In this document: in pieces, positions 1,378 to 31,198 of the stretch
Layout of the letters: every line of letters begins with the position of its first letter
Position numbering within the stretch: the stretch's first letter is position 1
Source of the DNA: Thermoplasmata archaeon
Lineage (GTDB): Archaea; Thermoplasmatota; Thermoplasmata; Lutacidiplasmatales; UBA184
Direction of reading: 5' to 3'
Assembly (NCBI GenBank): GCA_022750435.1
Contig: JAKIVS010000017.1
Coordinates: 1 to 32,642 of the forward strand
Length of the DNA stretch: 32,642 bases
Notes under the pieces: generated by a model
What the model was told of the DNA's origin: nothing
What the model saw: the letters and a program-made list of their open reading frames with translations, nothing else
Database searches by the model: none
Program-made: the position numbers and the translations under genes

Positions 1378-2587
1378 CGAGGCGCGCCTCCTCCGGCTCG
1401 TCCGGGCGCACGACCGCTGGCGCGGTCGCTCGGTGTTCAACCTGCTCCCCAGCGAGAACGCGGTCTCGCCGCGCGCGCGCTCGTTTCTCTCGAGCGACCT
1501 CGCCGGTCGCTACACGCTCCCCGTGGTGACCCAGTTCCACGGGGAGACGATCGACAACAGCTACGCCGGGACGAGGTACACCGACGAGATCGAGGCGCTC
1601 GGGAACGCCGCGTGCGCCCGCCTGTTCCGGGCGAAGCACGCCACGCTCCGGCCCCTCTCCGGCCACATCGCCGCGATGTCGGCGATGGTGCCGCTCCTCC
1701 CGAAGGGCTCCACGATCCTCGCCATCGCCCCGGACCAAGGCGGCTACGACGGCTACGCCCCCGGCTACCTCCCCGCCGTGTTCGGGTGGGACGTTCGGCC
1801 CCTCCCGGCCGATGGTCCCGGCTTCTCGGTCGAAGCGGACACCGCCGTCGCCGAGATCCGCCGCGAGCGGCCCACCGCGGTGGTCCTCGGCCAGAGCTTC
1901 TTCCTGTTCCCGTACCCGCTCGCCGCGATCGCCGAGGCGACGCACGCGGTCGGCGCGCTCGTCTTCTACGACGCCTCGCACGTCCTCGGCCTCATCGCCG
2001 GGGGCGAGTTCCAGGACCCCCTGAGGGAAGGGGCCGACGTCCTCTACGGGAGCACCCACAAGTCGTTCCCCGGTCCCCAGGGAGGGATCCTCGCCACGGA
2101 CCGGACCGACCTGTTCGAGCAGATCGACCCGGCGCTCGTCTGGCGGGTGTTCGACAACGCCCACTGGAACCGGATCGCCGGCGTCGCCCAGACGGTGCTC
2201 GAGCTCGAGCGGGTCGGGCCGGAGTACGCCAGGACCGTGGTGAAGAACTCGCAAGCGCTCGGTCGCGCCCTCAGCGACCGCGGGATCCCGCTCGTCGCCG
2301 AGTCGCTCGGCTTCACCCGCTCCCACCAGCTCTTGCTCGACGGCGAGGAGCTGAAGCGCCGTCACGGAATCGGGCCCGGCGCGCTCGGCCGCCGCTGGGA
2401 GAAGCAACGGCTCGTCGGCGACCTCGCCGGCCGGGTGGGCACGGCCGAGGTGACCCGACTCGGCCTCGTGCCGGAGGACATGCCGAGGCTCTCAGACCTC
2501 CTCGTCCGCGCCGGGATCGGGAAGGAACGGGTCGCCGCCGAGGTGCTCGCCTGGCGGAAGCAGTACCCCGCTCTCCGCTTCGCGTGA
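1358..2587 (+). CDS. glyA: serine hydroxymethyltransferase
   Basis: This 409-residue PLP enzyme interconverts serine and glycine with transfer of a one-carbon unit to a pterin carrier (tetrahydrofolate or tetrahydromethanopterin; not decided by sequence). Visible motifs are LLPSENAVSP near the N-terminus, the YDASHVLGLI segment with the PLP-ring-contacting Asp, and the Schiff-base motif STHKSFPGPQGG with the lysine at K235. Length is normal for the family. The ATG at 1358 lies inside the csl4 end (20-nt overlap), so it is the third gene of a METTL5-like/csl4/glyA operon. The pairing of RNA genes with one-carbon supply is by position only. Confidence 0.95.
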   Translation: MPALPADEARLLRLVRAHDRWRGRSVFNLLPSENAVSPRARSFLSSDLAGRYTLPVVTQFHGETIDNSYAGTRYTDEIEALGNAACARLFRAKHATLRPLSGHIAAMSAMVPLLPKGSTILAIAPDQGGYDGYAPGYLPAVFGWDVRPLPADGPGFSVEADTAVAEIRRERPTAVVLGQSFFLFPYPLAAIAEATHAVGALVFYDASHVLGLIAGGEFQDPLREGADVLYGSTHKSFPGPQGGILATDRTDLFEQIDPALVWRVFDNAHWNRIAGVAQTVLELERVGPEYARTVVKNSQALGRALSDRGIPLVAESLGFTRSHQLLLDGEELKRRHGIGPGALGRRWEKQRLVGDLAGRVGTAEVTRLGLVPEDMPRLSDLLVRAGIGKERVAAEVLAWRKQYPALRFA

Positions 2588-7400: not shown

Positions 7401-9363
7401 CGACGTCGAAGACGGGGACGTCGCCGACGCCGAGGTACGGGCTCTGGCCGTTCGCCCGCAGGTAGTCGTCGATGAGGGCGAGCTCGCCGGCGGTCGTCGG
7501 GCACGCGAAGCTGGTGCCACCGTAGCCCCACTCGAAGGTGCCGTCGAAGAAGATCGTCTCGTTGAAGTCGGCCTCCGCCGCGACGGAGCTGCCGAGGGCG
7601 CGTCCGACGTTCGGCACGGAGAGTCCGTGCTGGTACCACGGCTGCTGGAACCAGTAGCTTGTTCCGAACCCACCGGACGCGTAGGGCGGGGCGTACGTCG
7701 TCAGGTTGGTGTTCGGGACGTACCAGAACTCCTGGCTCTGGATCCCCTGCGTCTGGTCGACGTGAATCGTCTCGTTCGGCAAGCCGAACAGCGGGATCTC
7801 CGTGTTGAACGACCCGTAGGTATCCACCGCCGGGAACGTCGCGCCTCCCGGCCCGTAGGCGACCGTCCGCGCGCCGTCCACCGACAGGACGTACGGGTCG
7901 GTCGCCGGGAAGCTCCCGGAGAGGATCCCCGACGTCTTGTCGAAGCCGCCGCCGTCCGCGCTCGAGGCGAGGACGGTGGTGCCCCGCGCCGAGAGGAGCA
8001 TGAAGTAATCGTGCATGGTGAGCGCATTCGCCCAGTTCGGACCGTAGAGGTTCGGCCAGCGGTCCTCGCCGCCGCCCCAGGAGTTCGAGACGATGTTCGG
8101 GGCGGTCGTCATCGACGCCACCGCCGCGTAGTCGTCGTCAAGGATGTTGGACGCGAGGTCGGGTCCGTAGACCGGGACGATGTGCGCGCCCGGCGCCATC
8201 GTACTGGAGAACTCGATGTCGAGCGCCATTTCCCCGGAGCCGCCGTCGGTCCAGGTGATGGTGCCGTTCAGGCCAAAGGAACGGTCGACCGGGTCCGGTG
8301 TTACCCGGTCGATGATCTGGTTCGGATTGTTCCAGACCATCTGGCTGAACCCCTTCAGGTCGCCGGGGTTGATCCCGCCGGCCATGATGATCGCGATCGT
8401 GATCGGGCGGCCGGTCGAGTTGCCGTTGATGCCGGCGTTGATGAGCGGCATCGCCTGGTACATCGTGCTCAGCGCGGCGGGCGTGATGACCTGGTACGTG
8501 CGGAACTGGTGGTGGCTCGTCGAGTAGTATCGGAACCAGATGTAGCCGTGGTTCGTGTAGTTGTACGCCGAGCTCTCGTTGACGGTGGCGTTCACGAAGG
8601 CGCTGTTGAACGAGGGCTGGTCGATGGCCGGGATCGAGGAGTCGATGTCGCTCGCCACCTGGCCGTTGAACTCGTTCGTCGGGGCCGCCACGGTGGCCGA
8701 GTCGAGCCCATCGACCGTGACCACGCCGGGGGCGATCGGGGTCGGGAGGGCGAGGGGGAGGTCGTTGACGTAGCCGAGCGTGCCGTTGTCGTACTGGACA
8801 CTGACGAGCTGGGTCTTGAACGCCTCGTTGACTTGCGCGGCCGTGCCGATGAAGGAGATCGAGATCGGACCCCGGGTCCCGACGTGGAATCCGAGGGACG
8901 TGAAGTAATTCTCCGTGTTCTGGACCGTGGCCGGGTCCGGGCCGAACAGCGACTCCTCCTGCGGGAGGGTGAGCCACTGGTGGTAGAGGCCCGAGCCCGC
9001 CGTCTCCTCCTCGGAGATCATGTTGGCGAGCAGCTGGGCGTTCCGCATCTGGAATCCGACGGTGAAGGTGATCGTCTGGTTCGACGGAAGGTTGCCGAGA
9101 ATGGAGGCGTTGGAGAGAGAGCTGACGGGGGTACCGGGGTTCTGCAGGAACGAATCGTGCTGGAGCTGCGCCCCCGTCTGGACGACGGCGGAGGGGGCCA
9201 TGGGCGCCCCGCCCGTCGGCGAACCGGCCGGGGTGACCCCGGAGGCGAACGCCATCGCGGACCCCGAAACCAGCATGATCAGGACGATCAGAAGGGCGGC
9301 CCCCGCACGCGCGTAGGGTCGGAATGTGGCGGATGGCGGCACCAGTGATGCGGTTCCCTGCAT
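4420..9363 (-). CDS. giant membrane-anchored S53 (kumamolisin-like) protease with C-terminal C2H2 finger
   Basis: This protein has 1647 residues from the chosen ATG. The signal segment is at about 19-40 and a pro-kumamolisin-type propeptide at about 85-220. The S53 catalytic domain runs from about 265 to 740. Its catalytic pair is E378 and D382 (GEMALDIEF), the oxyanion Asp is D470 (SSADGG) and the nucleophile is S618 (YGGTSFACP). The calcium-loop pattern is DITNG...GWDFPTGWG, about 670-715. Long sequon-rich beta domains follow, then a module (about 1356-1555) shared with the neighbour at 2703-4274 and a membrane helix (1555-1577). The predicted cytoplasmic end carries C1622-x2-C1625-x12-H1638-x4-H1643. 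S53 enzymes are acid-active endopeptidases; an extracellular site is inferred. An in-frame ATG at 9426 with AAGGAG upstream is a real alternative, but it would give a 40-residue Arg/His-rich extension before the signal helix. Confidence 0.9.
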   Translation of the reverse strand: MQGTASLVPPSATFRPYARAGAALLIVLIMLVSGSAMAFASGVTPAGSPTGGAPMAPSAVVQTGAQLQHDSFLQNPGTPVSSLSNASILGNLPSNQTITFTVGFQMRNAQLLANMISEEETAGSGLYHQWLTLPQEESLFGPDPATVQNTENYFTSLGFHVGTRGPISISFIGTAAQVNEAFKTQLVSVQYDNGTLGYVNDLPLALPTPIAPGVVTVDGLDSATVAAPTNEFNGQVASDIDSSIPAIDQPSFNSAFVNATVNESSAYNYTNHGYIWFRYYSTSHHQFRTYQVITPAALSTMYQAMPLINAGINGNSTGRPITIAIIMAGGINPGDLKGFSQMVWNNPNQIIDRVTPDPVDRSFGLNGTITWTDGGSGEMALDIEFSSTMAPGAHIVPVYGPDLASNILDDDYAAVASMTTAPNIVSNSWGGGEDRWPNLYGPNWANALTMHDYFMLLSARGTTVLASSADGGGFDKTSGILSGSFPATDPYVLSVDGARTVAYGPGGATFPAVDTYGSFNTEIPLFGLPNETIHVDQTQGIQSQEFWYVPNTNLTTYAPPYASGGFGTSYWFQQPWYQHGLSVPNVGRALGSSVAAEADFNETIFFDGTFEWGYGGTSFACPTTAGELALIDDYLRANGQSPYLGVGDVPVFDVANAYYNGNVSLVPFYDITNGTSYWGNIGAQNQYAWPPGQVYPHAPDGTTTYGDTGKGWDFPTGWGTINVWNFAQDMLKIDQMPGTFITVNATTNRYAPLEWTDMTLNSTYTIDVNTTAGIAASNPVVGIEFFGANGVNSTSYVTNATLVPSPSLSLRFTLNTAVAPFAPLFSPGLILFTLGNATEKNLGFFYDWISPQIPSSPLNVTVVNPSTSGEVGGYAEFNGFLGFGPPTVDPACCGALFPNTFTVRVTQNGQPVYDAEVQAQIATTNLLAFSGSLAEAQATSYGNPHYLSPTIVSQTFTNVTGYALVYTWNVIAPTTFFVNATYGAATGGTTYQVLPGPNVGISDNSGGSMSNFNIIRWILYATHQNDSAAAIAREEPNALNQTAFWNLMYGWQGERLAVNVSNYTGGALGGANVWLGTFDNGRNTKFETYESTGATLGVTNTSGTANTTLPNGTAYIQIPDNMSDTGFFSATAQGQTSGWGFVAVDIGGSVNRTFQYTEPCIPTQATFTALIHCEFNNSYQRNYTAAPILVLPNPVNLTVQTPSRLPLDFFGYGANVSFEVNVSLPFLDPVAGNNIGWNWPASREHVDSIKAYVDGRYALDLSPGSPPYWQNVTKFGNLSNDFANGTHNLTIVVTDSQGHVFTDTQQFIVGGVTITNLGTNNLYTVVPFVVNWTLDIPSTEVYNYTFNQTFDLRYVTPSCGSPNNPCPTVVNLTEKVKDGQVLYNQSINLTLMGLDHFYAGSGGYPPGQYQVIIWLNANHSGSIAKQVNTFLIFSAVTGSITGPGTNATVPIGNVTIAYSYQGGYIVNASLFVYPSTSNTTPVFTAGAYVPAVGEQPRGGASTWQAVQIGMYEIVLLLGTPYGNFTAHDWINVTNPNGLVFLNQSSTKPIVSLSSASLAAILAIIGVLVGLFLGLIAAPALRPALGGSASAGTSAPKPWDEGKPGDATSSAGSGASTPGGLSCPICHEPATNEFALHQHQQVVHGLEE

Positions 9364-13273: not shown

Positions 13274-16200
13274 ATGCCGGTCGCGCGCCGCCGCATCGGC
13301 GTTCCCCTTGCCCGCGTTACGCTCGTCCTCGCGGTCGCCGTCGCAATGGCGATTCCGGTGTGGAGCGGTACGCTCACCGTCGCGTCGAGCTCCGCGACGA
13401 CCTCGACCCCGCCGGTCCCCCCCGGGAGCGGTGTCGTGGTAGCACCCGCGTTCGTTCCCGGCCCAACCACATCGGTACTAGGTCCGATGGCGGCCAACAC
13501 CACGCTCGACGTGGCCGTCGGGGTCGCCGGACTTGCCGCGGCTTCGGCCCAGGGAACGCTCACCCTGATCGATACCCCCGGTACGCCCGAGTACCGGCAG
13601 TACCTCACGCCCGCGGAGGTCGCGGACCGGTTCGGCGCGTCGACAACGACCTACAGCGTCGCGGTCGACCACTTTCGGTCGCTCGGACTCACGGTCCAGA
13701 CGAGCCCCGACCGCACGATGCTCCTCGTCCACGGGAACGCCTCGTCTGTAGGCGCGGCGTTTGATACGCGGTTCGAGACGTACCGCGACGGCGGTCGAAC
13801 GTTCTTCGACCATCCAACGGCCGCCCGACTTCCCGCCGGCGTACCATGGTCTGGGGCGCTCGGCCTCGGCAACGTCAGTGAGATCCAGCCGATGGCCGCG
13901 CCGAACCCGAATCCCGTGGCTCCGCTGGCCGGATGCTCGGGGACGTTCGGTTTCCTCCCGTGCCAGATCCAGAAGGCGTACAATCTTTCCGGTGTCCTGG
14001 CGGGAGGGGCGAACGGGAGCGGCTACACGCTCGCGGTCGTCGACACCTACGACGGGAACGAGCCGCAGCCGCAGCTGAGCGCCGACCTGGCGTCGTTCGA
14101 CAGCGATGTCGGTTTGGCCGCCGGAACCGTGGACTACCTGTACCCCGTGCCCACGAGCCGGAACCTGAACACGACCGCCACCGGATGGGCGCTCGAGGAG
14201 GCGCTCGACCTCGAATGGGCCCGCGCGATGGCGCCCGCGGCGACGATCAAGATGACGTTCGCCCCGGACGCGACGGCCGGGCTCTACGGGAGTGTCGACT
14301 GGTTGGTCGCCCACCACGCCGCCGACGTCATCTCGCTGAGTTGGGGGGAGCCGGACGTCGGTGTCTTCAACGCGTATTCCGCAGCGTGCCCGTCGGCGTG
14401 CAACGCCACCACCGACGGCTCGTACGCCCTCCTTCACCCCGTGCTCGAGGACGCGGCCCTCGAGGGGATCACGGTGCTCGCGGCGACCGGGGACTGCGGC
14501 GCCGCCGGAGGGACGAGCGGGGTCTCGACGGACTATCCCGCGAGCGACCCGTACGTCGTCGGCGTCGGCGCCACCGACCTCACCGTCAATGCCTCGAACG
14601 GCTACGTGCGCGAGAGCGCCTGGAGCGGGAACGCGACGGGAGCGAGCTCCCCCGGGTGCCAGAATCAAGGCGGGAGTGGGGGCGGGTACGCTCCGTTCCC
14701 TCGCCCGTACTGGCAGCACGACACCGGCCTCGCCACCTCGGAGACGAAACGCGGGGTTCCGGACGTCGCGATCAACGGCGGGAACGGCGTGGAGATCGTC
14801 TTCGAGGGATTCCTCACCGCGGCGAGCGGTACGAGCGTCTCCTCCCCGCTGTGGGGCGGGATTGTCACCGACCTCGACACCTACGGCGCGGCCGCGCTCG
14901 GGTTCGTCGACCCGTCCCTCTACACCGTCGCATCGGGAGTCTCGGGCTCCGCCGCGTTTCACGACGTGACGACCGGGTCGAACGGCTACCACACGGGCGT
15001 CGGATGGGACCCTGTGACGGGGATCGGTTCCCCGAACGTCGGTCGGCTCGCTCCGCTACTGACCCGGACGACCGTCACCGCTTCCCCGATGGAGGTGACC
15101 CTCCTCGCGACCCCGAGGTTCGGCTCGGCGCCGCTCAACGTCAGCTTCCAGGTGAAGGCGACCGGTGGCGCGACGCCGTACAACTTCGAGGAGGTCGACT
15201 TCGGCGACTTCAACACGAGTCTCGCGCCGAACGGGTTCACGAACCACACGTTCGTTCGCCCCGGCGTCTACGATGCCTGGGCGGTGGTGTTCGATGCCCA
15301 GGGGAACAGCTCGACCTCGACCCCGATAGTTGTGGTCGTGGGCGGGGGCGGAGGGCTGCCGGTGAATCTCACGACCAACCATCCGCTTCCCACGGTCGGT
15401 CTCGCGGTGAATTATCGAGCGAACGTGACCGGGGGTACGGCACCGTTCACGTACAACTGGAGCTTCGGCGACGGGACGTACCTCGAGAACGGAACGACCG
15501 CGTCGGTCAACCACTCGTACGGGGCCTCGGGACCGGCGTGCGTGGTCGTGACGGTGCACGACTCCGGCCACCCCCAGGACGGAGGCGCGTCGAACCGGGT
15601 CCTGGAGCTGGTCGGCGGCGCGACCTCCGGTTTCTGCCCGAACCCGTCGGCGATCTCCGCGTCCCTGTCCCCGGTGCCGGCCGCCCGGGACCTACCCGGG
15701 GACTTTGACCTCGCCCCGACGATCGTCGGCGGAACGGCGCCGTACACCGTCCAGTACGCGGCGAACGACACCTACGCCGACCTCTGCGAATGCGGGATCT
15801 TCCGGACGCTCGGCGTCCACAACGTCACGGCGTTCGTCAACGACTCCCTCGACCAGCAGACGACCGTCTCGACGAACCTCACGCTGTACCCCGCAATGTA
15901 CGGCCGGTTCACGGCGAGCGTGCAGGGAGGCCCGGCCCCGCTGCTGGTCCAGTTCGACATGCAGGTCGGCGGAGGTCACGGACCCAACACGTCGCTGTGG
16001 CAGTTCGGCGACGGCGCGACAAACACGAGCCTCTCGGCGAACCACACGTACGCCACTCCCGGCTTCTACGTCGCGACCGGCCGGTCGAACGACTCCTTCG
16101 GGGGGAGCACGAGCGAGGCGTTCCTCATCGACGTGACGAACTCGCTCGCCCCTCCGCCGGTCGTCGTCACAGCGACCGTCACCCCGGCGGTCTCCGTGCC

Positions 16201-17464
16201 GGCGGGAACGCCGGTCAATTTCTCCGCCAACGTCGTTGGGACCATCGGAGCCCCGTTCGTCGATTACTGGTCGTTTGCCCCGTTCGGTCTCTCCGCGTAC
16301 GGCCCCACGGTGTCGGAGTCGTTCCCGTACGTGGCGTGCGTGACGAGCGGGAGCTGCCCGCTGTTCGCGAACCTTTCGGTCCGCGCCTCTGACGGGCTCA
16401 CCGTCGCCGCCGTGCCGATCGAGGTCGGCGGCGCGCAGCAGGGCAACGACACCGGCCTGGCGTTCCAGACCCGGCTCTCCCCGTCCGGTGGCAACGCCCC
16501 GTTCGTGGTGTTCGGCTTCGCGGGGGCGACCGGCCTCCCCGGCGTGGGCCTCGGCTGGCAGTTCGGGGACGGCGGCACGGCAACCGGCCCCATCGTCACC
16601 CACGTGTACAACCTCAACGGGAATTACACGGCGACCATCACCGCCACGGACGCCGGGGGAGACGCCGTCGTCCAGACGTTCGCGATCTCCGGCGGGCCGC
16701 CCGGCCCGGGGATCGTGGACGTCTCCGGGGGACCGAACGTCACCGCCGGGGTCGCGCCCCTCAGGGTCGGATACTCGGTGAGCGCGGCCGGGGGAGTCGG
16801 CGCTCCGTACACGTACAGCTGGTCGCTCGGAGATACGACGAATGCGAGCGGCGCGGTGGTGAACCACTCGTACGACCGACCGGGCCACTACATCGCCTTC
16901 GTGACCGCCACCGACGAGCTCGGGACGACCGGGACCGCGGCGTACTCGATCGACGTGTACAACGGCACGGACGTACTCCTGACCCTCGCTCTCCTCCCCA
17001 ACGTGACCGACCCGGGAGGCGGGGTCGGACTCGACGTCGCGGCGGCGCCGCACTGCACCCCGACCTCGGTCCCCGCGTGCGCGCCCGGGAACGTGACGGT
17101 GCGCGCGACGTATGTGCCCGTAACCTCGACCGCGGCACCGACCGGGTTCGGCGGGTCGTCGTACACGTCGGTCCCCCTCAACGCCTCCGGGGAAGGCGTC
17201 ACGGACGTCCACGCGCCGTCCGCCTCCGGGACCTACATCGTCACGGCGCAGACCGTGGGCCGCAACTACACCGGCCTCGCCGTCGCCTACCTGGTCGTCA
17301 ACGCCACCTCGACTCCGGCGCCCGCCGACCACTCCCTCGAGCTCCTCGCCGGGGCCGGCGTGGTCGGTCTGGGGGTCGGCCTGGCCGCGTTCGTACTCCT
17401 GCGACCTCGTCGGCGGGAGCCGGACGCCCCCGCTCCCGGAGTCGGGACGGGCCCAAACCCCTAA
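13274..17464 (+). CDS. S53 (kumamolisin-like) protease with PKD-like domains and C-terminal membrane anchor
   Basis: This 1396-residue protein starts with a signal segment (about 12-40) and a pro-kumamolisin-type propeptide (about 75-207). The S53 domain (about 220-597) has catalytic E308 and D312 (WALEEALDLEW), oxyanion Asp D407 (AATGDCG) and nucleophile S521 (SGTS). A calcium loop ends in GVGWDPVTGIGSPN near 576-589. About seven PKD-like repeats follow (about 612-1230). Several show the W/F-x-FGDG core (YNWSFGDG, LWQFGDG, LGWQFGDG) and a later HxY/N-H-x-Y strand. A further beta domain, one membrane helix (about 1355-1375) and an Arg-rich stop-transfer end follow. S53 enzymes work at acid pH; PKD domains often bind protein or polysaccharide. 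It is inferred to be a cell-surface protease. Confidence 0.93.
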   Translation: MPVARRRIGVPLARVTLVLAVAVAMAIPVWSGTLTVASSSATTSTPPVPPGSGVVVAPAFVPGPTTSVLGPMAANTTLDVAVGVAGLAAASAQGTLTLIDTPGTPEYRQYLTPAEVADRFGASTTTYSVAVDHFRSLGLTVQTSPDRTMLLVHGNASSVGAAFDTRFETYRDGGRTFFDHPTAARLPAGVPWSGALGLGNVSEIQPMAAPNPNPVAPLAGCSGTFGFLPCQIQKAYNLSGVLAGGANGSGYTLAVVDTYDGNEPQPQLSADLASFDSDVGLAAGTVDYLYPVPTSRNLNTTATGWALEEALDLEWARAMAPAATIKMTFAPDATAGLYGSVDWLVAHHAADVISLSWGEPDVGVFNAYSAACPSACNATTDGSYALLHPVLEDAALEGITVLAATGDCGAAGGTSGVSTDYPASDPYVVGVGATDLTVNASNGYVRESAWSGNATGASSPGCQNQGGSGGGYAPFPRPYWQHDTGLATSETKRGVPDVAINGGNGVEIVFEGFLTAASGTSVSSPLWGGIVTDLDTYGAAALGFVDPSLYTVASGVSGSAAFHDVTTGSNGYHTGVGWDPVTGIGSPNVGRLAPLLTRTTVTASPMEVTLLATPRFGSAPLNVSFQVKATGGATPYNFEEVDFGDFNTSLAPNGFTNHTFVRPGVYDAWAVVFDAQGNSSTSTPIVVVVGGGGGLPVNLTTNHPLPTVGLAVNYRANVTGGTAPFTYNWSFGDGTYLENGTTASVNHSYGASGPACVVVTVHDSGHPQDGGASNRVLELVGGATSGFCPNPSAISASLSPVPAARDLPGDFDLAPTIVGGTAPYTVQYAANDTYADLCECGIFRTLGVHNVTAFVNDSLDQQTTVSTNLTLYPAMYGRFTASVQGGPAPLLVQFDMQVGGGHGPNTSLWQFGDGATNTSLSANHTYATPGFYVATGRSNDSFGGSTSEAFLIDVTNSLAPPPVVVTATVTPAVSVPAGTPVNFSANVVGTIGAPFVDYWSFAPFGLSAYGPTVSESFPYVACVTSGSCPLFANLSVRASDGLTVAAVPIEVGGAQQGNDTGLAFQTRLSPSGGNAPFVVFGFAGATGLPGVGLGWQFGDGGTATGPIVTHVYNLNGNYTATITATDAGGDAVVQTFAISGGPPGPGIVDVSGGPNVTAGVAPLRVGYSVSAAGGVGAPYTYSWSLGDTTNASGAVVNHSYDRPGHYIAFVTATDELGTTGTAAYSIDVYNGTDVLLTLALLPNVTDPGGGVGLDVAAAPHCTPTSVPACAPGNVTVRATYVPVTSTAAPTGFGGSSYTSVPLNASGEGVTDVHAPSASGTYIVTAQTVGRNYTGLAVAYLVVNATSTPAPADHSLELLAGAGVVGLGVGLAAFVLLRPRRREPDAPAPGVGTGPNP

Positions 17465-19857: not shown

Positions 19858-21309
19858 CTACCCCTTGACGACCCCGAGGGGGACCAGGCGCGCCACGCGA
19901 CGGGTGAGGCCGGCGCCCTCGGCGACCTTGACGACCTCGTCGACGTTCTTGTACGCCCCGGGCGCCTCTTCGGTGACGCCCTCCCGCGAGGCGGCGCGCA
20001 CGATGATGCCGTGGCTCGAGAGGGAGCGGGTCACCTCGTCGTACCGGAACTGGCGGACGGCCGCGTGACGACTGAGCCGGCGCCCCGCGCCGTGACAGGA
20101 GGAGCCGAACGACCGCTCCATGGCGCTGGGGAGCCCGACGAGGACGTAGCTCGCCGTTCCCATATCGCCCGGGATCAGGACCGGCTGACCGAACGGCCGG
20201 TACGCCGCCGGAACTTCGTCGCGCCCGGCCGCGAAGGCGCGGGTCGCCCCCTTGCGGTGGACGAGCACCGGCGCCTCGCCGCCGTTGGTTCGGTGGCGCT
20301 CCTGCTTCGCGATGTTGTGCGCGATGTCGTAGACGACCGCGAGGTCCATCGATTCGTCCGGCCGGCCGAAGACGTTGCGGAAGGCGCGTCGCACGCCGGT
20401 GGTGATCAGCTGGCGGTTCGCCCAGGCGAAGTTCGCGCCGGACGCCATCGCCCCGAGGTAGCTCTGTCCGTCCTCGGAGGAGATCGGCGCGCACGAGAGC
20501 TGCCGGTCGACGAGCTGGACCCCCTCCTGCTGGAGCCGGGCGTCCATGCGGGCGATGTAGTCGGTGGCGATCTGGTGGCCCAAGCCGCGCGACCCGGTGT
20601 GCAGCATGACGGTCACCTGCCCGGTCGACAGACCGAGCGCCTTCGCAAACCCGGGTTCGGAGATCGTGTCGACCGCCTGCACCTCGAGGAAGTGGTTCCC
20701 AGAGCCGAGTGTTCCGAGTTGTCGGAGGCCGCGCTTCTTTGCGACGTCGCTGACCTTCGAGGGGACGGCGCCGGCGTGCCGGCCGTTCTCCTCCTGCACC
20801 GGCAGGTCTTCGGCCCGACCATGACCGTGCTCGACCGCCCACGCCGCCCCGCCGGCGAGGACCTCCTCGACCTGGCCAGGGGTGAGCGCCAATCCGCCCT
20901 TCGAGCCGACGCCGGTCGGGACTTCGCGGTAGAGGGCGTCGATGAGCTCCTTGAGCTTCGGCCGGACCTCGTCGACGGTGAAGTTGGTCCGGAGAAGCCG
21001 GACGCCGCAGTTGATGTCGTAGCCGATCCCGCCGGGGGAGACGACCCCCTCGTCGAGGTCGAACGCGGCGACGCCGCCGACCGGAAAGCCGTAGCCGAAG
21101 TGGATGTCGGGCATCGCGTAGGCGCCGCGGACGATGCCCGGGAGCGTCGCCACGTTCGCGAGCTGCTGGAGCGACGGGTCGCCGTCGACGCCGGAGAGGA
21201 GGGCCGCGCTCGAGTACAGGATCCCCGGCACGCGCATGCCGGGCGCCTCGCCGATCGGTATCTCGAAGGTGAACTCATCCCGCTGAATTAGCTTCGGCAC
21301 CGTCGGCAT
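19858..21309 (-). CDS. rtcB: RNA-splicing ligase RtcB
   Basis: This 483-residue GTP- and manganese-dependent ligase joins 2',3'-cyclic phosphate or 3'-phosphate RNA ends to 5'-OH ends, the last step of archaeal tRNA splicing. Motifs seen: YDINCGVRLL with metal-binding C101; GTLGSGNHFLEVQ; HTGSRGLGHQ; YDIAHNIAKQE; and SSCHGAGRRLSR with the guanylylated histidine H406. It ends in the usual GVVKG. No intein interrupts it. The second ATG (21309) is chosen over 21321 because it puts the active histidine close to the known H404 of the Pyrococcus enzyme and sits about 25 nt below a TATA-like box. It probably seals the tRNA-Leu intron found at 67-89. Confidence 0.95.
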   Translation of the reverse strand: MPTVPKLIQRDEFTFEIPIGEAPGMRVPGILYSSAALLSGVDGDPSLQQLANVATLPGIVRGAYAMPDIHFGYGFPVGGVAAFDLDEGVVSPGGIGYDINCGVRLLRTNFTVDEVRPKLKELIDALYREVPTGVGSKGGLALTPGQVEEVLAGGAAWAVEHGHGRAEDLPVQEENGRHAGAVPSKVSDVAKKRGLRQLGTLGSGNHFLEVQAVDTISEPGFAKALGLSTGQVTVMLHTGSRGLGHQIATDYIARMDARLQQEGVQLVDRQLSCAPISSEDGQSYLGAMASGANFAWANRQLITTGVRRAFRNVFGRPDESMDLAVVYDIAHNIAKQERHRTNGGEAPVLVHRKGATRAFAAGRDEVPAAYRPFGQPVLIPGDMGTASYVLVGLPSAMERSFGSSCHGAGRRLSRHAAVRQFRYDEVTRSLSSHGIIVRAASREGVTEEAPGAYKNVDEVVKVAEGAGLTRRVARLVPLGVVKG

Positions 21310-21330
21310 GGCGCGCGCCATCCGGGCGAG

Positions 21331-22236: not shown

Positions 22237-22782
22237 CTACGGGACGAGGGTGAGCATCGGCTCGCGGGCCCGGACGTTCGAGCCGGGCGAGACCTTCAGG
22301 TCCGCGACCCGCCCCGCGACCGGCGCCGCGATCTCGTTGCGCATCTTCATCGCTTCGAGGACGAGGAGGACCTGACCCTTCCCGACCCGGTCTCCCTCCC
22401 GGACGCGGAGTTCGACGACCTTCCCCGGCATCGGCGGGGCGACCGGAGTTCCCCCGGGGATCGAGGGCGCTACGGGGCCAGATACGATCGCCGTCGGCGT
22501 CCCCGTCGATGGGACCGGCCGGGGGGCATTCCCCGCGCCGACCCGCTTCACGATGGTGCGGTACTGCTCGCCGCTCACCACGACGACCGGCGGGGCGTCG
22601 GGCGTCGCTTCGGGCCACCCCTCGACGACGAGGCGTTCCCCCGCGACCTCGAGCTCGACCTTGCCGAGCGCGTCCTTGAGGACCTTGAGCGGAACCTCCC
22701 GGCCGTTCCACCGTACCGTGCCACGGTCGAGGTCGACCTCGACCGTGGTCGTCTCACCGTCGATCGCGACGTCGAGCCGCAT
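22237..22782 (-). CDS. biotin carboxyl carrier protein (transcarboxylase 1.3S-like)
   Basis: This 181-residue protein carries biotin on K146 in the motif EAMKMRNE, inside a C-terminal biotinyl/lipoyl domain (about 108-181) that starts with APPMPGKVVELRV. The N-terminal half (1-75) is a separate beta-rich domain, and a Pro/Thr/Ala-rich linker (about 80-108) acts as the swinging arm. It moves carboxyl groups between the two carboxyltransferases encoded upstream. The frame is open to 22914, but the ATG at 22782 is chosen; it overlaps the end of the preceding gene by 29 nt. It is the last gene of the birA operon. Confidence 0.9.
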   Translation of the reverse strand: MRLDVAIDGETTTVEVDLDRGTVRWNGREVPLKVLKDALGKVELEVAGERLVVEGWPEATPDAPPVVVVSGEQYRTIVKRVGAGNAPRPVPSTGTPTAIVSGPVAPSIPGGTPVAPPMPGKVVELRVREGDRVGKGQVLLVLEAMKMRNEIAAPVAGRVADLKVSPGSNVRAREPMLTLVP

Positions 22783-24283
22783 CGACCATCCTCCTCCCGG
22801 CCTGAAGCCGGGCGCGTCCTTCGTGGGCCCAGGGGCTGACGCCGGCCGCCGCCGGGCGCGCGACTGCCGGGAGAGCCACGACCGGCTTCGCGGTGCGAAG
22901 GGCCCCGACGACACCGACCGCGACCGCGTTCAGAACGTCCGGCGTGAGGCCGTCGTCCTTCGCCGTCCGGTACGCCTTGTAGACGAGCGGGAAGATCGCG
23001 TAGCTCAGCGCCTCGGCGGTGTCGGCCGAAGGGACGAGCGCGCGCACCTCGGCGACCGCCTTCGCGAACTCGGGCTCCAGGAGGTCGGCGGGACGTCCGG
23101 AGATCGCCTTCGCCTCGGCGAGCACCTTCTTCGTCAGCTCCGGGTCGAGTGGCCCGGGCGGGTGGCCGTAGAGCCCGCGAACGTAGTCCCGGACTTCGCG
23201 GGTGATCTGCTTGTACCGCTCGCCGACGAGGACGTTCACGACGGCCTGGATGCCGACGATCTGGCTCGTGGGCGTGACGAGTGGCGGATAGCCGAGGTCG
23301 GCCCGGACCCTCGGGATCTCCTGGAGCACCTCGGGAAGCCGGGCCAACTGGTCCTGCTCTTGGAGCTGGCTGAGGAGATTCGAGAGCATGCCGCCCGGGA
23401 CCTGGTGGACGAGGATCCCCGGGTCCGTCTGGAGCGACCGGAGGTTCAGCATCGGTCGGTAGTGCTCGAGGACGGTCTGGAAGTACTCGGCGAGGTCGGC
23501 GAGCGCGCCGAGGTCGAGCTTCGGGTCCGTCGGCGTGCCGCGCATCGCGCCGACGAGCGTCTCCGTCGGCGGCTGGCTTGTTCCGCCGGCGAAGGGGCTG
23601 AGGGCGCTGTCGACCGCGGTTGCCCCGGCGTCGGCGGCGGCGAGGCACGAGAGCGTCGACATGCCGCTCGAGGAATGGGTGTGGAGGACGACGGGGAGAC
23701 CGACGTTCGTGATGAGGGCCTTCGTGAGCTGCGACGCCTCCGTCGGAGGCAGGAAGCCGGCCATGTCCTTGATGCACAGTTCATCGGCCCCCATCTCGGC
23801 GAGCGTCGTGCCGAGGCGGACGAACGCTTCCAGAGTGTGGACCGGGGACTGCGTGTAGCAGATCGTCCCCTGGGCGACGGCGCCGGTACGCTTCACCGCC
23901 TTCAGCGCGACCTCCATGTTCCGGGGGTCGTTCAGCGCGTCGAACACGCGGAAGACGCCGATCCCTTGCCGGGCCGCCTCGGCGACGAACTTCTCGACCA
24001 GGTCGTCCGCGTAGTGCCGGTAGCCGACGAGGTTCTGGCCGCGCAGCAGCATCTGGAGCGGAGTGTTCGGCATCCCGCGCTTCAGAGTGCGCAGACGCTC
24101 CCACGGGTCCTCGTGGAGGAACCGGAGGGAGACGTCGAACGTCGCCCCGCCCCACGCCTCGATCGTGCGGTACCCGACGGCGTCGAGCCGCTCGAGCGCG
24201 GGAAGCATGTGCTTCGTGCGCATCCGCGTCGCGATCAGCGACTGGTGGCCGTCGCGCAGGACGGTCTCGGTGATGCCGACCAT
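22754..24283 (-). CDS. pyruvate/oxaloacetate carboxyltransferase (transcarboxylase 5S / PycB type)
   Basis: This 509-residue TIM-barrel carboxyltransferase starts with the family motif ITETVLRDGHQSL (metal-binding D11). K172 in CIKDMAGF is the expected carbamylated lysine, and H201/H203 in LHTHSSSG are the remaining metal ligands. The conserved C-terminal domain follows. It transfers carboxyl between carboxy-biotin and pyruvate/oxaloacetate. Unlike many PycB or OadA proteins it has no fused biotin domain: it ends in an Arg/Ala-rich stretch, and the biotin carrier is the next gene (29-nt overlap). It starts 27 nt after the acyl-CoA carboxyltransferase stop. Confidence 0.93.
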   Translation of the reverse strand: MVGITETVLRDGHQSLIATRMRTKHMLPALERLDAVGYRTIEAWGGATFDVSLRFLHEDPWERLRTLKRGMPNTPLQMLLRGQNLVGYRHYADDLVEKFVAEAARQGIGVFRVFDALNDPRNMEVALKAVKRTGAVAQGTICYTQSPVHTLEAFVRLGTTLAEMGADELCIKDMAGFLPPTEASQLTKALITNVGLPVVLHTHSSSGMSTLSCLAAADAGATAVDSALSPFAGGTSQPPTETLVGAMRGTPTDPKLDLGALADLAEYFQTVLEHYRPMLNLRSLQTDPGILVHQVPGGMLSNLLSQLQEQDQLARLPEVLQEIPRVRADLGYPPLVTPTSQIVGIQAVVNVLVGERYKQITREVRDYVRGLYGHPPGPLDPELTKKVLAEAKAISGRPADLLEPEFAKAVAEVRALVPSADTAEALSYAIFPLVYKAYRTAKDDGLTPDVLNAVAVGVVGALRTAKPVVALPAVARPAAAGVSPWAHEGRARLQAGRRMVDAARRRDRR

Positions 24284-24310
24284 CGGACGACGCCCCCCCG
24301 ACCCCTCGCC

Positions 24311-25861
24311 TCAGAGGGGGATGTTGCCGTGCTTCTTCGCCGGTCGGTCCTCGCGCTTCGGCTCGAGCAGCGTGAGCGCCTTCACGAGCTTCGCGCGCGT
24401 CTCCGACGGGTCGATCACGTCGTCGATGTAGCCACGCTCGGCGGCGAGGTACGGGTTGAGGAACTCGACCTGGTAGTCGTGGACGAGCTTCTTGCGCACG
24501 GCGTCCCGCTCGGCGGGGGCCGCCTTGTCGATCTCCCGGCGGAACAGGATGTTGACCGCGCCGTCGGCGCCCATGACGGCGATCTCCGCCGTCGGCCAGG
24601 CGACGTTGAAGTCGGCGCCGAGGTGCTTCGAGCACATCACGTCGTACGCGCCGCCGTACGCCTTGCGAAGGATCACCGTCAGCTTCGGGACCGTCGCCTC
24701 GGCGTACGCGTAGAGGAGTTTCGCGCCGTGGCGGATGATCCCGCCGTGCTCTTGCTGGACGCCGGGAAGGAACCCCGGCACGTCGACGAACGTGAGGAGG
24801 GGCAGATTGAACGCGTCGCAGAACCGGACGAACCGGGCGGCCTTCATTGAGGCGGTCAGGTCGAGGCAGCCGGCCAGGTGGCTCGGCTGGTTCGCGACGA
24901 CGCCGACGGATCGGCCGGCGAGCCGCGCGAATCCCACGACGATGTTCGGGGCGTGGCCCTCCTGCACCTCGAGGAACGTGTCCGGGTCGAGGACGTTGCG
25001 GACGACGGAGAGCACGTCGTACGGAGTGTTGGCGTCCTCCGGGACGAGTCCCTTCAGCGAGGCTGCCGCGTCCGCGGGCGGCTCGACCGGCGCGGTGGCG
25101 GGCGCCTCCTCGACGTTGTTCAGTGGGAGGTAGGAGAGTAACTTCCGAGTGAGGGCGAGGGCGTCGGCGTCGGAGGCCGCGGCGAAGTGGGAGACTCCGC
25201 TCCCCAGCCCGTGCGCGTCGGCGCCGCCGAGCGCCTCGGCCGTGGTCTCCTCCCCCGTGACCGCGCGGATCACGTCGGGGCCCGTGATGAACATCTGGCC
25301 CTGGCCACGGACCATGACGATGAAATCGGTGATCGCGGGAGAGTAGACCGCGCCGCCGGCGCAGGGACCGAGCACGACGGACAGTTGCGGAACGACGCCC
25401 GAGAGCGTGACGTTCCGGAAGAACACCTCGCCGTAGCCGCCGAGGCTCATCACGCCCTCCTGGATCCGGGCGCCGCCCGAGTCGTTGAGTCCCACGACGG
25501 GGACCCCGGCCTTCTTCGCGGTGTCCATCAGGCGGACGATCTTTTCGGCGTGGGCTTCCCCGAGCGCGCCGCCGAACACCGTCGCGTCCTGCGCGAACGC
25601 GCAGACCGGTCGGCCGTCGACCTCGCCCCAGCCGGTGACGACGCCGTCGCCGGGGATCCGCCGGTCGCCGAGCCCGAAGGTGGTGACCCGGTGGGTGACA
25701 TACGGGCCGGTCTCGACGAACGTCCCCGCGTCGAAGAACGTCTCCAGCCGCCCCCGCGCGGTGAGCTTCCCGCTCCCGGTGTGCTTGGCGACGCGGTCCG
25801 CCCCTCCGCCCTCGAGGGTCTGGCGTCGCTTGAGTTCCCATCGGTCGAACGCGCCGGTCAT
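24311..25861 (-). CDS. acyl-CoA carboxyltransferase (propionyl-CoA/methylmalonyl-CoA type, 12S/PccB/MmdA)
   Basis: This 516-residue tandem crotonase-fold carboxyltransferase has the first-half motifs NDSGGARIQEGV and GPCAGGAVYSPAITDF. The second half has VPGFLPGVQQEHGGIIRHG and RKAYGGAYDVM. D407 in AYDVM is the position that, in actinobacterial enzymes, separates propionyl-CoA-preferring (Asp) from acetyl-CoA-accepting forms, so propionyl-/methylmalonyl-CoA is the likely substrate. The ending KKHGNIPL is typical of PccB/MmdA. The frame is open upstream, but the ATG at 25861 overlaps the birA stop as ATGA. It works with the biotin carrier and the pyruvate-type subunit encoded downstream. Confidence 0.94.
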   Translation of the reverse strand: MTGAFDRWELKRRQTLEGGGADRVAKHTGSGKLTARGRLETFFDAGTFVETGPYVTHRVTTFGLGDRRIPGDGVVTGWGEVDGRPVCAFAQDATVFGGALGEAHAEKIVRLMDTAKKAGVPVVGLNDSGGARIQEGVMSLGGYGEVFFRNVTLSGVVPQLSVVLGPCAGGAVYSPAITDFIVMVRGQGQMFITGPDVIRAVTGEETTAEALGGADAHGLGSGVSHFAAASDADALALTRKLLSYLPLNNVEEAPATAPVEPPADAAASLKGLVPEDANTPYDVLSVVRNVLDPDTFLEVQEGHAPNIVVGFARLAGRSVGVVANQPSHLAGCLDLTASMKAARFVRFCDAFNLPLLTFVDVPGFLPGVQQEHGGIIRHGAKLLYAYAEATVPKLTVILRKAYGGAYDVMCSKHLGADFNVAWPTAEIAVMGADGAVNILFRREIDKAAPAERDAVRKKLVHDYQVEFLNPYLAAERGYIDDVIDPSETRAKLVKALTLLEPKREDRPAKKHGNIPL

Positions 25862-26598
25862 GCCTTCGCTCCCACGGAGAGGTCGCCCGCGTGGAACGAG
25901 CTGAGAGTGCCCTGGTGGTCCACCGTGATCGAACCGTCGTCGCCGAGAGAGCGGAGGACACCGACCTCGTGGCCGTCGACGCGGACCGGGTGACCAACGC
26001 CGCACAGATGACGGCGGCACTCGGCGACCACGTGGCGTGCTCCTTCCGGAAGATTCAGGCGTTGGACCGCGGAGTGGATGGACCGGAGCACGACCTTCTC
26101 CACCTCGCCCATCGGCAGAACGGGAGGAGGAAGGTCTTCGAGGAACAGCGCTCGCGACTCCACGTCCGCGGCGAGGGAGGCGGTCCCCCGATCCACGTTC
26201 ACCCCGACCCCGACGACGGCGATGTCCGGGTGGCCCGGTCGCGCGATCCGGTCCACGAGGATGCCCGAAAGCTTGCGCAGCGTCGGCTCGCCCCGGTCGG
26301 CGACGAGGTCGTTCGGCCACTTCACCGAAAGTCCCGAGGCGCCCTCGGGGTCGAACGCGGCGCGGAGCTCGGCGACGACCGCGAGGGGCAACAGTTCCGG
26401 AGTCGATGTCGGCAGGTCGACGAGGACGGAGAGATAGAGGCCACCGTCGGGCGAATCCCAGCTTCGTTCCAAGCGCCCCCGGCCCTGGCTTTGGGCTCGC
26501 GCAACGACCACGGTGCCGCTCGCGAAGCCGCGACGAGCGAGAGCGACGGCTTCGGTCTGCGTCGAACCGACCACCTCGTGCTCGAACCGCTGCGCCAC
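25858..26598 (-). CDS. birA: biotin--[biotin carboxyl-carrier protein] ligase
   Basis: This 246-residue enzyme activates biotin with ATP and attaches it to the carrier lysine. Motifs are GSTQTEA (11-17), the biotinyl-AMP loop GRGRLERSWDSPDGG (39-53), KWPND (93-97) and RKLSGIL with K109. A small C-terminal SH3-like domain ends the protein. There is no N-terminal helix-turn-helix, so it is a ligase only and not a repressor. The start is GTG at 26598. The stop overlaps the start of the carboxyltransferase gene (ATGA), so ligase and substrate protein are made from one operon. Confidence 0.93.
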   Translation of the reverse strand: MAQRFEHEVVGSTQTEAVALARRGFASGTVVVARAQSQGRGRLERSWDSPDGGLYLSVLVDLPTSTPELLPLAVVAELRAAFDPEGASGLSVKWPNDLVADRGEPTLRKLSGILVDRIARPGHPDIAVVGVGVNVDRGTASLAADVESRALFLEDLPPPVLPMGEVEKVVLRSIHSAVQRLNLPEGARHVVAECRRHLCGVGHPVRVDGHEVGVLRSLGDDGSITVDHQGTLSSFHAGDLSVGAKA

Positions 26599-28681: not shown

Positions 28682-31198
28682 GTGCGGCGCCTCCGCTGCC
28701 CGGTCGCGCGGCTCGCGCTCCTTCTCGCGCTGACCGGAGTCCTCGTGGCCCCCGGGGGATTCGGGTTCGCGGCCGGCTCCGCGTCCATCGTTCCGGCGGT
28801 GCCGGCCCACGATCCCGCCGCCTCGGCCGCGGCGAGCGTCCCCGCCCCCGCGCCGGCCCCCGCGGCTCCTCAGCCGTCCGCGACCCTTCCGACGTTTGAG
28901 TGGGGCCTCGCGTTCATCCTCTACGGACAGGGCGACGACACGACCCACTTCATGGGCGAGGGAGCCGCGATGGTGGTCGACAATCAACTTCGGAACATCA
29001 CGACGTTCGGCGGCGAAGGGTCCGGAGGGCTCACGAACTCGACGGTGAATTACAACTATTCGGCGGGCTACTTCAACGTCACCCAGAACAGCCCGAGCCC
29101 CTCCGCGCGCACGAACGTCTCGTTCGCCGACGTGCCGGGCAAGGACTTCGCCGTGCTGTTCGGGGGCCTCACGAACCTCCGCACCCAGCGGACCGCGAAC
29201 GACACGTGGGTGTACTACTTCGCGAACCAGACGTGGTTCAACGTGACCCATGCCTTGGCTCCCCCGGCCCGGCAATCGGCCGCGTTCGCCGTGAACGCCT
29301 CCGGGAACATCGCCCTCCTGGAGGGGGGCTGGAACCCGACGTACACCGCGAACGGCTCCGGAGCGGCCGTGATCTGGAACGACACCTGGTCGCTCAATCT
29401 CACGACGTTCGACTGGACCGAGCTCCACCCGACGGCGGCGCCACCCCCGTTGTTCGGCTCCGGCCTGATCTGGCAGAACGTGACGAACCGGTTCGACCTG
29501 TTCGGCGGCTGCGCGCTCGCGTGCTCGTCGACGCTTTGGACCTACGGAGGAGTCCCGGCCAACTGGCACAAGGAGGCGACGACGGGAACGCCGTCGGCCC
29601 GGGCTTCCGACGCCTTCGTCTGGGACGGCGAGGACGGGGTCGGCATCCTCGTCGGCGGGTTCTCCTGGAGCGGCTCCGGCGCCCAGGCGCTGGGGGACCA
29701 GTACCTGCTTTCCCCCGGATCTCTCGCTTGGTCGATCCTCGGCGCCGGCGGCGGACCCGGACCGCGGTACGACGCACCGAACGCGTGGGCCGACTTCCCC
29801 GGATGCATCGGCCTCAACATCCTCGGGGGCGACATCTCGCTGGCCGGTCCCCCGCAGAACGCCTCCCTGCTGGAGCCGTTCGGCGGACCCGCGACCGACT
29901 GCTTCCCGAACTTGATCGCCGGCGGGGGCTCCCCACCGCCTCCGCCCTGCTCGGTCCAAAGCGTCCCCCTCGAGTTGCGCGTGACCGACAACGTGACCGG
30001 ACACGGCATCGCCAACGCGACCGTGACGATCGACGGGAAGTGCCTCGACTCCCACCTCATCACGAACTCGGCGGGATACCTCAACGCGACCCTGCCGGCA
30101 CCCGACGTCCTCAACTTCACGGCGAGCGCCGCCGGGTACCGCGACCGGACGGTGGTCGACCGATTCCTCCCGAACACGACGAACTTCGTGGGCATCACCC
30201 TCCTGCCGGACCCGTCCCTCGACGTCCAGGCCTGGGGACTCGGAATCTCGGGAGTTCCGGTGCCGCTCGCGAACGTGGCGATCCAGGAGGGGCAGTACCG
30301 GATCCTTGGGGGCACCGACGCCGAGGGGTGGCTAAACACCACGCCGCTCGTGGCCTCGCCGGGGCCTCTCGTGGTGAGCGGGGCGCTCGTCAACTATTCG
30401 GGCGCCTCGGTGGGCGTGGTGGTCCCGGTCACCGGCCGCGTCGTGGCCAACCTCACGCTCCTCGCGGCCGGCCCGCTCGACCTCCACATCGTGGACGGCA
30501 CGACCGGCCTCGGGGTGGCCGCGGTGAACGAGGAGATGCGGGACCTCGACCTCGAGGGACCGGCCTTGACCCCGTTCTCGGTCGACGCGCAGGGCTGGTA
30601 CAATGTCTCCGCTCTGGACGCCGCGAACTATTCCATCTCTGCGGGGGCGGCCGGCTATCTCTCGAATCAGACCACGTTCGACCACCCGTGGATCGAGCCT
30701 CAGATCGTCGTCCTCTCCCTCCCGGAAGAGTCCGGCGCCACCCTCGATGTCTTCGTCCAGAACTCGGCCACCGGGGGGCCTATCCCGGCGGCGACGGTCC
30801 GCCTCGTTGGCTTCGCGACGCTGGTCAGCACACCGACCGGATGGGCGAACTTCTCGGACGTCAAGCCGCCCAACCTCTACCCCGTCCAGGTGAACGCGAC
30901 GGGCTTCACCTCGAACTACACCGTCGTCTCGCTGAGCTTCTTCCAGAAGGTCGCACCGTACGTCGTCGACCTGACGCCGTTGCCGACCTGCCCGGGGAGC
31001 CCAAGCTGCAGCCCGGGAACGTCCGGAACGAATGGCCCGCCGTTTGGGTTCGTGACCTCGGGCGGCGGGGTCGGCGTCCTGCTGCTCGCCACCCCCGTCG
31101 CGCTCCTTTGGGCGGGCGCCCTGTACGCCCTCGTGGTCCTCCGCCGGTCCCCTCGCCGAGCCCCCGCCTCACCGGTCCGCGCGGACCCGGGTCGGTGA
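28682..31198 (+). CDS. anchored surface protein with Kelch-like propeller and repeated Ig-like (carboxypeptidase-regulatory-type) domains
   Basis: This protein has 838 residues from the chosen GTG. A signal segment (VRRLRCPVARLALLLALTG start) is followed by an Ala/Pro linker (about 40-72). Residues about 75-410 hold Kelch-like blades: recurring FGG/LFGGL, NDTW-WYY or NDTWSLNL, and LVGGFSWSG strands. From about 427 to 768 four Ig-like units resemble carboxypeptidase-regulatory domains (ATVTIDG...TNSAGYLNATLP; TDAEGWLNTT; DAQGWYNVSA; TPTGWANFSD). A TCPGSPSCSP hinge, one membrane helix (about 793-822) and a basic end follow. Kelch propellers bind proteins or sugars, so a binding or adhesion role is inferred. 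Confidence 0.85.
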   Translation: MRRLRCPVARLALLLALTGVLVAPGGFGFAAGSASIVPAVPAHDPAASAAASVPAPAPAPAAPQPSATLPTFEWGLAFILYGQGDDTTHFMGEGAAMVVDNQLRNITTFGGEGSGGLTNSTVNYNYSAGYFNVTQNSPSPSARTNVSFADVPGKDFAVLFGGLTNLRTQRTANDTWVYYFANQTWFNVTHALAPPARQSAAFAVNASGNIALLEGGWNPTYTANGSGAAVIWNDTWSLNLTTFDWTELHPTAAPPPLFGSGLIWQNVTNRFDLFGGCALACSSTLWTYGGVPANWHKEATTGTPSARASDAFVWDGEDGVGILVGGFSWSGSGAQALGDQYLLSPGSLAWSILGAGGGPGPRYDAPNAWADFPGCIGLNILGGDISLAGPPQNASLLEPFGGPATDCFPNLIAGGGSPPPPPCSVQSVPLELRVTDNVTGHGIANATVTIDGKCLDSHLITNSAGYLNATLPAPDVLNFTASAAGYRDRTVVDRFLPNTTNFVGITLLPDPSLDVQAWGLGISGVPVPLANVAIQEGQYRILGGTDAEGWLNTTPLVASPGPLVVSGALVNYSGASVGVVVPVTGRVVANLTLLAAGPLDLHIVDGTTGLGVAAVNEEMRDLDLEGPALTPFSVDAQGWYNVSALDAANYSISAGAAGYLSNQTTFDHPWIEPQIVVLSLPEESGATLDVFVQNSATGGPIPAATVRLVGFATLVSTPTGWANFSDVKPPNLYPVQVNATGFTSNYTVVSLSFFQKVAPYVVDLTPLPTCPGSPSCSPGTSGTNGPPFGFVTSGGGVGVLLLATPVALLWAGALYALVVLRRSPRRAPASPVRADPGR

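Follow-up and report, generated by a model that had tools for sequence, protein, structure and literature searches.

Positions 22237-26598 of the 32,642-nucleotide stretch analysed here (the window: contig JAKIVS010000017.1 of the Thermoplasmata archaeon assembly GCA_022750435.1; Lutacidiplasmatales, UBA184) carry a four-gene operon that we read as encoding a biotin transcarboxylase, predicted to shuttle carboxyl between methylmalonyl-CoA and pyruvate with no need of ATP. We put the probability of this reading at roughly 0.8. An earlier annotation made from the letters alone (the sequence-only reading) had raised such ATP-free transfer as a possibility; it is now supported by the distribution of genes across the genus, where both carboxyltransferases are kept, biotin carboxylase (BC) is nearly always missing and the membrane beta subunit of Na+-pumping decarboxylases is never found. 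The operon and its parts are as follows.

25858-26598, minus strand: BirA-type biotin-protein ligase, 246 aa, GTG start (TIGR00121, 101.7 bits against a cut-off of 83.1; PF03099).
24311-25861, minus strand: 12S-like acyl-CoA carboxyltransferase of PccB/MmdA type, 516 aa, ATG at 25861 (PF01039, E 1.4e-194).
22754-24283, minus strand: 5S-like pyruvate/oxaloacetate carboxyltransferase without a biotinyl domain, 509 aa (PDB matches, predicted structure, conserved metal-site residues).
22757-22942, minus strand: C-terminal module of the 5S-like subunit, proposed 12S-docking tail (predicted structure and tail-distribution counts).
22237-22782, minus strand: separate, 1.3S-like biotin carrier, 181 aa, ATG at 22782 (PF00364).
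22246-22443, minus strand: biotinyl domain of the carrier, with the biotin-acceptor lysine in LEAMKM, codon 22345-22347 (translation and Pfam).

The genes follow one another in the order BirA, 12S-like, 5S-like, carrier. The BirA stop and the 12S start overlap as ATGA, 27 bp separate 12S from 5S, and the 5S end overlaps the carrier by 29 bp. Pfam and NCBIfam agree on the type of each product (Carboxyl_trans, E 1.4e-194; BPL_LplA_LipB, 1.3e-16; Biotin_lipoyl, 1.2e-17; on the 5S, PYC_OADA, 2.8e-51, and HMGL-like, 3.8e-17), and the four genes lie where the sequence-only reading had placed them. Its finer observations stand too: the AYDVM specificity motif is present in the 12S-like protein, within RKAYGGAYDVM, and the 5S has no biotinyl domain that Pfam detects; the LEAMKM site is on the separate carrier. 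Among proteins of known structure, the 12S matches 1vrg with 669 bits, PccB (1xnv) with 663 and 12S (1on3) with 609; the carrier matches the gamma chain of methylmalonyl-CoA decarboxylase (2d5d, E 1.6e-12) and 1.3S (1dcz, E 4.5e-9). Carrier and ligase genes accompany 12S and 5S in 8/8 same-genus genomes for which a longer stretch was read, the BirA-like open reading frame (ORF) lying near 12S in each.

The 5S-like subunit aligns with PycB (5ks8, 486 bits), OadA (2nx9, 471) and Propionibacterium 5S (1rqb, 426). Its residues D11, K172, H201 and H203 align with metal-site positions of the 1rqb sequence and are invariant in 18 rows; we take their counterparts in transcarboxylase 5S, the metal ligands and the carbamylated lysine, to be D23, K184, H215 and H217. 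Q14 and R81, which presumably correspond to pyruvate-binding positions of pyruvate carboxylase, are invariant in 15 aligned rows. The predicted structure (mean predicted local distance difference test score, pLDDT, 84) superposes on PycB (5ks8_C, TMq 0.85), OadA (2nx9, 0.83) and Propionibacterium 5S (1rqb, 0.82; 1rqh, 0.83).

The genus was sampled as 49 genomes (G000-G048, the operon's own being G000), searched for BC with PF02785 and for the beta subunit with PF03977; the assemblies are in part incomplete (G000 is 84% complete, G006 62%). Neither BC nor a membrane decarboxylase subunit had been seen in the window by the sequence-only reading, and this extends to the whole 84% complete assembly of G000, with 0 matches to either model. 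BC occurs in 2/49 genomes, G006 and G032, the same search being positive in 13/14 control genomes. The beta subunit occurs in 0/49; its search is positive in G057, G063, G069, G079 and 2/14 controls. A 5S (E below 1e-50) is present in 43 of the 49 genomes (all except G006, G009, G029, G032, G034 and G041), and an own-type 12S likewise in 43: G026, G029, G034 and G041 have none, and G006 and G032 have instead a 54-55% identical carboxyltransferase adjoining BC. Both genes are found in 42 genomes and are adjacent in 41 of these (they are on separate contigs in G020). Thirteen genus genomes are at least 90% complete with at most 5% contamination: twelve have 12S and 5S without BC, while the thirteenth, G032, has BC with another carboxyltransferase and no 5S. 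In G006 and G032 the transcarboxylase has apparently been swapped for a true carboxylase. The PccB-type carboxyltransferase and BC lie side by side at 6043-9248 of locus L058 (G032:C25) and 1717-5051 of L059 (G006:C76), in genomes without 5S.

Because BC is found in 2/49 genomes and the beta subunit in none, the genus genomes, on present data, cannot supply a standard propionyl-CoA carboxylase, a standard pyruvate carboxylase or a biotin-dependent Na+ pump, yet they keep both carboxyltransferases. The operon lacks the BC subunit of propionyl-CoA carboxylase, both the PycA (BC) and the PycB-fused biotinyl domain of two-subunit pyruvate carboxylase, and the PF03977 protein of a Na+-pumping biotin decarboxylase. 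What it does combine, free of BC, is the composition of EC 2.1.3.1: a carboxyltransferase core, a pyruvate carboxyltransferase that keeps the 5S metal ligands, and a carrier.

The complex would be soluble and independent of ATP, with BirA biotinylating the carrier. The 12S-like core would pass the carboxyl group between methylmalonyl-CoA/propionyl-CoA and carrier biotin, and the 5S-like subunit between biotin and pyruvate/oxaloacetate. Coupled to epimerase and mutase, this would link propionyl-CoA to succinyl-CoA with neither BC nor ATP. The partner enzymes, which the sequence-only reading had named for a genome-wide check, are indeed there: methylmalonyl-CoA mutase in 45/49 genus genomes, with two matches in G000, and epimerase above 100 bits in 38/49, adjoining one mutase in the own genome (G000:C17). 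Same-order genomes outside the genus (G049-G051) have no 12S, mutase, epimerase or BC, and their 5S matches are weak. Phosphoenolpyruvate carboxylase (PEPC, PF14010) and GTP-dependent phosphoenolpyruvate carboxykinase (GTP-PEPCK, PF00821) have 0/49 matches each, in a search that did not extend to ATP-PEPCK, malic enzyme or the glyoxylate shunt.

The transcarboxylase reaction is reversible, and its direction can be approached through the lineage, which resembles Lutacidiplasmatales in its GC content of 69.7% and its genes. Lutacidiplasmatales genomes predict aerobic respiration, beta-oxidation and degradation of branched amino acids, with complex IV in 19/22 of the more complete genomes, propionyl-CoA-yielding pathways, and a propionate pathway marked by pccB among other genes; the missing BC goes unmentioned in the accessible text of that analysis (PMC9287336). 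In a probably respiring archaeon that degrades fatty and amino acids, the net reaction is more likely propionyl-CoA + oxaloacetate -> methylmalonyl-CoA + pyruvate than Wood-Werkman fermentation. Fermentative operation as in Propionibacterium, methylmalonyl-CoA + pyruvate -> propionyl-CoA + oxaloacetate, is a possible though rather unlikely alternative. Besides reversibility itself, it can draw on Asgard sets interpreted as propionate fermentation (PMC7015854, accessible text) and on acetate and ethanol genes that suggest facultative anaerobes within Lutacidiplasmatales; complex IV and the propionyl-CoA-yielding pathways of the same genomes speak against it (PMC9287336, accessible text).

A further clue may lie at the C-terminus of the 5S. 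In the model, a helix (residues 448-463) is followed by segments 463-490 and 492-509 with pLDDT under 50, which hold W485-x3-G489-R490. In distinct 5S genes, the C-terminal 60 residues were searched for W-x3-[GE][RK]. This tail is present in 35/37 5S that lie beside 12S without BC or beta (30/30 from the same genus, 5/7 others), in 0/40 beside BC and in 0/14 beside beta, 7/14 of the latter also having 12S. Among 5S with no 12S, BC or beta seen at the thresholds used, 2/24 carry it, one of them in a genome of the genus, where the contig breaks off within 12S. The linkage counts were not selected by motif, but 30 of the 35 positives come from one genus. As background, W-x3-GR occurs in the last 60 residues of 7/476 ORFs (1.5%); these seven include the Na+-pump delta subunit of G063 and the BC that adjoins the G074 12S.

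Similar tails are found on BC itself. In Thermoplasmata, they end 4/6 BC genes beside 12S (G061, G064, G069 and G074; not G006 and G032) and 0/3 beside PycB; of the other 5S-linked BC, 0/31 have them. The BC C-termini of L004/L070, L005, L003, L007, L008, L157 and L158 end in W-x3-[GE][RK], and these genes lie beside 12S or have no PycB in the short stretch examined; BC genes of L001 and L156 have no tail, and those of G006 and G032 end in GGRF[VI]DGL without Trp (F-x3-GR in G006). Profile comparison of 5S tails gives a probability of 79% with BC tails and 25% with delta tails, and 0/200 column shuffles reach either score; as the rows were picked for the W/GR motif, the comparison is partly circular and the shuffles overstate significance. 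Pfam OAD_gamma matches 0/4 5S tails tried and both delta pieces tried. We infer that the tail is a dock, which would tether the 5S to the 12S core in the way of BC in related archaeal carboxylases and of delta in Na+-pumping decarboxylases. If this is right, the tail adds a separate line of evidence for a single complex of 5S and 12S.

The association has exceptions. Clostridial 5S of L118 and L146 are 12S-linked and tailless, as are those of L116, L130, L137, L147, L153, L154 and L155, which combine 12S, beta and 5S and were counted under beta; the delta ORF of some of these loci ends in a similar W...AR(R). The acidobacterial L093 5S ends in W-x3-YR. In six clostridial loci (L116, L130, L137, L153, L154 and L155), 12S, a small delta-like ORF, carrier, beta and the tailless 5S-like gene stand side by side.

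Relatives were taken as the best 80 loci from one scan of named genomes plus fetched stretches, so that their spread is that of a sample. Three main 5S neighbourhoods appear among the loci kept: beside BC (PycB), beside beta (OadA), or together with 12S and carrier. To the last belong Bathyarchaeota L081, Hermod archaeon L087, Thorarchaeota L110, f17 L056/L057 and some Clostridia, as well as acidobacterial L093, in which 12S is a fragment; Thorarchaeota L105 has 5S and carrier, with no 12S in the stretch examined. The 5S of L087, L110 and L105 all carry the tail. Of five genomes with the set (Bathyarchaeon, Hermod, Thorarchaeon, two f17), three have no BC match (G065, G082, G084), none has beta, and mutase is present in 5/5. 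More widely, G065, G082, G083 and G084 gave no BC match, there being no completeness figure for G081-G085; among G065, G075 and G081-G085, beta occurs only in G085 and mutase in 7/7. A separate observation concerns L055 (G063:C1:1298000-1314000), where epimerase, mutase, 12S, an OAD_gamma-like delta, carrier and beta form a row that reads as a Na+-pumping methylmalonyl-CoA decarboxylase cluster; G063 is a 1.5-Mb genome with no BC match and a lone 5S-like gene, L054.

In trees, the genus 5S group together with support at the end of a long stem, and their placement is insecure. They stand apart from Propionibacterium 5S in the free tree, yet forced joining is not rejected by the approximately unbiased (AU) test (p 0.109), nor is joining with f17 (p 0.089). 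The 12S of the genus stands next to Streptomyces PccB and shares its AYDVM in 9/10 same-genus own-type rows (two rows being one sequence); one same-genus 12S has AYVVM (L064). The sequence-only reading had equated the operon with the 12S + 5S + 1.3S set of Propionibacterium: the composition holds, while the subunits fall among PccB and PycB/OadA types and not clearly with Propionibacterium 12S and 5S. As far as sequences can tell, this is a transcarboxylase by composition and not a proven member of the Propionibacterium family; PccB-type and PycB-type parts seem to have been joined in it, perhaps in an event separate from that in Propionibacterium. A single origin of tail-bearing 5S was also considered: one clade is rejected (AU p 0.007) and parsimony counts 5 changes, therefore the tail has undergone repeated gain, loss or recombination.

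Other explanations of the gene set fare worse than a fermentative direction. A transcarboxylase acting on other substrates, such as malonyl-CoA or another 2-oxoacid, is improbable: the substrate range of carboxyltransferases is not readable with certainty from sequence and L064 has its AYVVM, but AYDVM prevails in the genus, the presumed pyruvate-binding residues are conserved and mutase co-occurs. Slightly less probable still are two carboxylases sharing an unlinked BC, in which 12S + BC would make propionyl-CoA carboxylase and 5S + BC pyruvate carboxylase, the alternative that the sequence-only reading had itself set out. The closeness of the subunits to PccB and PycB, greater than to Propionibacterium 12S and 5S, would suit it. 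It is unlikely because BC is not co-conserved with the operon, beta is absent and mutase and epimerase are present: BC was not found in 47/49 genus genomes, including 12 of the 13 high-quality ones, and the two genomes that have it (G006 being only 62% complete) show no 5S, BC being paired there with another carboxyltransferase. A Na+-pumping methylmalonyl-CoA or oxaloacetate decarboxylase is the least credible, for although a 60% identical 12S lies within the G063 pump cluster and the 5S tail resembles that of the pump's delta subunit, PF03977 matches nothing in the 49 genus genomes with a search that finds it elsewhere.

Several points weigh against the ATP-free transcarboxylase that we favour. 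PycB and OadA both outscore Propionibacterium 5S as matches to the 5S, which reaches 502 bits with the NCBIfam 5S equivalog NF008984, below its curated cut-off of 827; in a tree of few sequences, the 12S pairs with Streptomyces PccB. Many genus assemblies are incomplete, and BC was searched with one model, which a non-homologous BC would escape. Bathyarchaeal G081, f17 G075 and acidobacterial G085 have such genes plus BC, and seven clostridial clusters bring 12S, beta and a tailless 5S together. Finally, the direction rests on the lineage.

With the ATP-using half of propionyl-CoA carboxylase, the enzyme to which this step is generally assigned, not found in this lineage, the pathway changes, as do the energy it costs and the way it connects to pyruvate and oxaloacetate. 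If the tail rule is true, it offers a sequence clue to the partner of 12S, separating transcarboxylase, carboxylase and decarboxylase in uncultured archaea, and opens the modular evolution of biotin enzymes to direct test. More tentatively, and at somewhat less than even odds, enzymes built on a PccB/12S core may share one portable C-terminal docking tail (a short helix, a linker and W-x3-[G/A]R), whose wearer in archaea, BC, 5S or membrane delta, would make the enzyme a carboxylase driven by ATP, a transcarboxylase that needs none or a Na+-pumping decarboxylase, respectively. A probably aerobic lineage, with pyruvate carboxylase, PEPC and GTP-PEPCK undetected in most or all genomes searched, would then oxidise propionyl-CoA by the transcarboxylase version, two members having swapped back to BC.

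Elsewhere in the window lie an SHMT-family protein (1151-2584, plus strand), a large secreted S53 (sedolisin) peptidase-like protein with PKD-like repeats, judged from its translation only (13274-17464, plus strand), an RtcB ligase (19858-21321, minus strand) and a protein with Kelch and carboxypeptidase-regulatory domains (28700-31195, plus strand).

The literature covered, mostly without subscription journals and without supplements (including that of PMC7015854), holds no description of the tail or of this operon in the lineage. Archaeal transcarboxylases have been proposed before: a methylmalonyl-CoA transcarboxylase with associated biotin ligase has been inferred for Asgard archaea and interpreted as propionate fermentation (PMC7015854). 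What is new here is the 5S tail, which the accessible text of that paper does not mention. Asgard sets resemble ours in their 12S-5S-carrier (L087, L110) or 5S-carrier (L105) arrangement and their tails, with BC not found in 3 genomes, a likeness that rests on those records and not on the paper's own sequences; their 5S and 12S sit on other branches, and fermentation there contrasts with a probably respiring lineage here. A propionyl-CoA:oxaloacetate transcarboxylase is named with mutase and epimerase in Pelotomaculum (PMC6046458, accessible text): likened by description and not by sequence, it performs this reaction in the sense that we propose, towards propionate oxidation, in a syntrophic anaerobic bacterium. 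The transcarboxylase of Propionibacterium freudenreichii (12S/5S/1.3S) shares with the operon three functional subunits, the lack of BC, a separate carrier and the 5S metal site; the operon differs in a 5S nearer PycB/OadA, a 12S nearer PccB and a linked BirA, and the W-x3-GR tail is a feature of the archaeal 5S, the Propionibacterium 5S having been compared only up to residue 498. Archaeal propionyl-CoA carboxylase-like sets (12S + BC + carrier, e.g. G074 and G064) have the same type of 12S, a separate carrier and a tail on the partner; there the partner is BC and the enzyme ATP-dependent, whereas here the partner is 5S.

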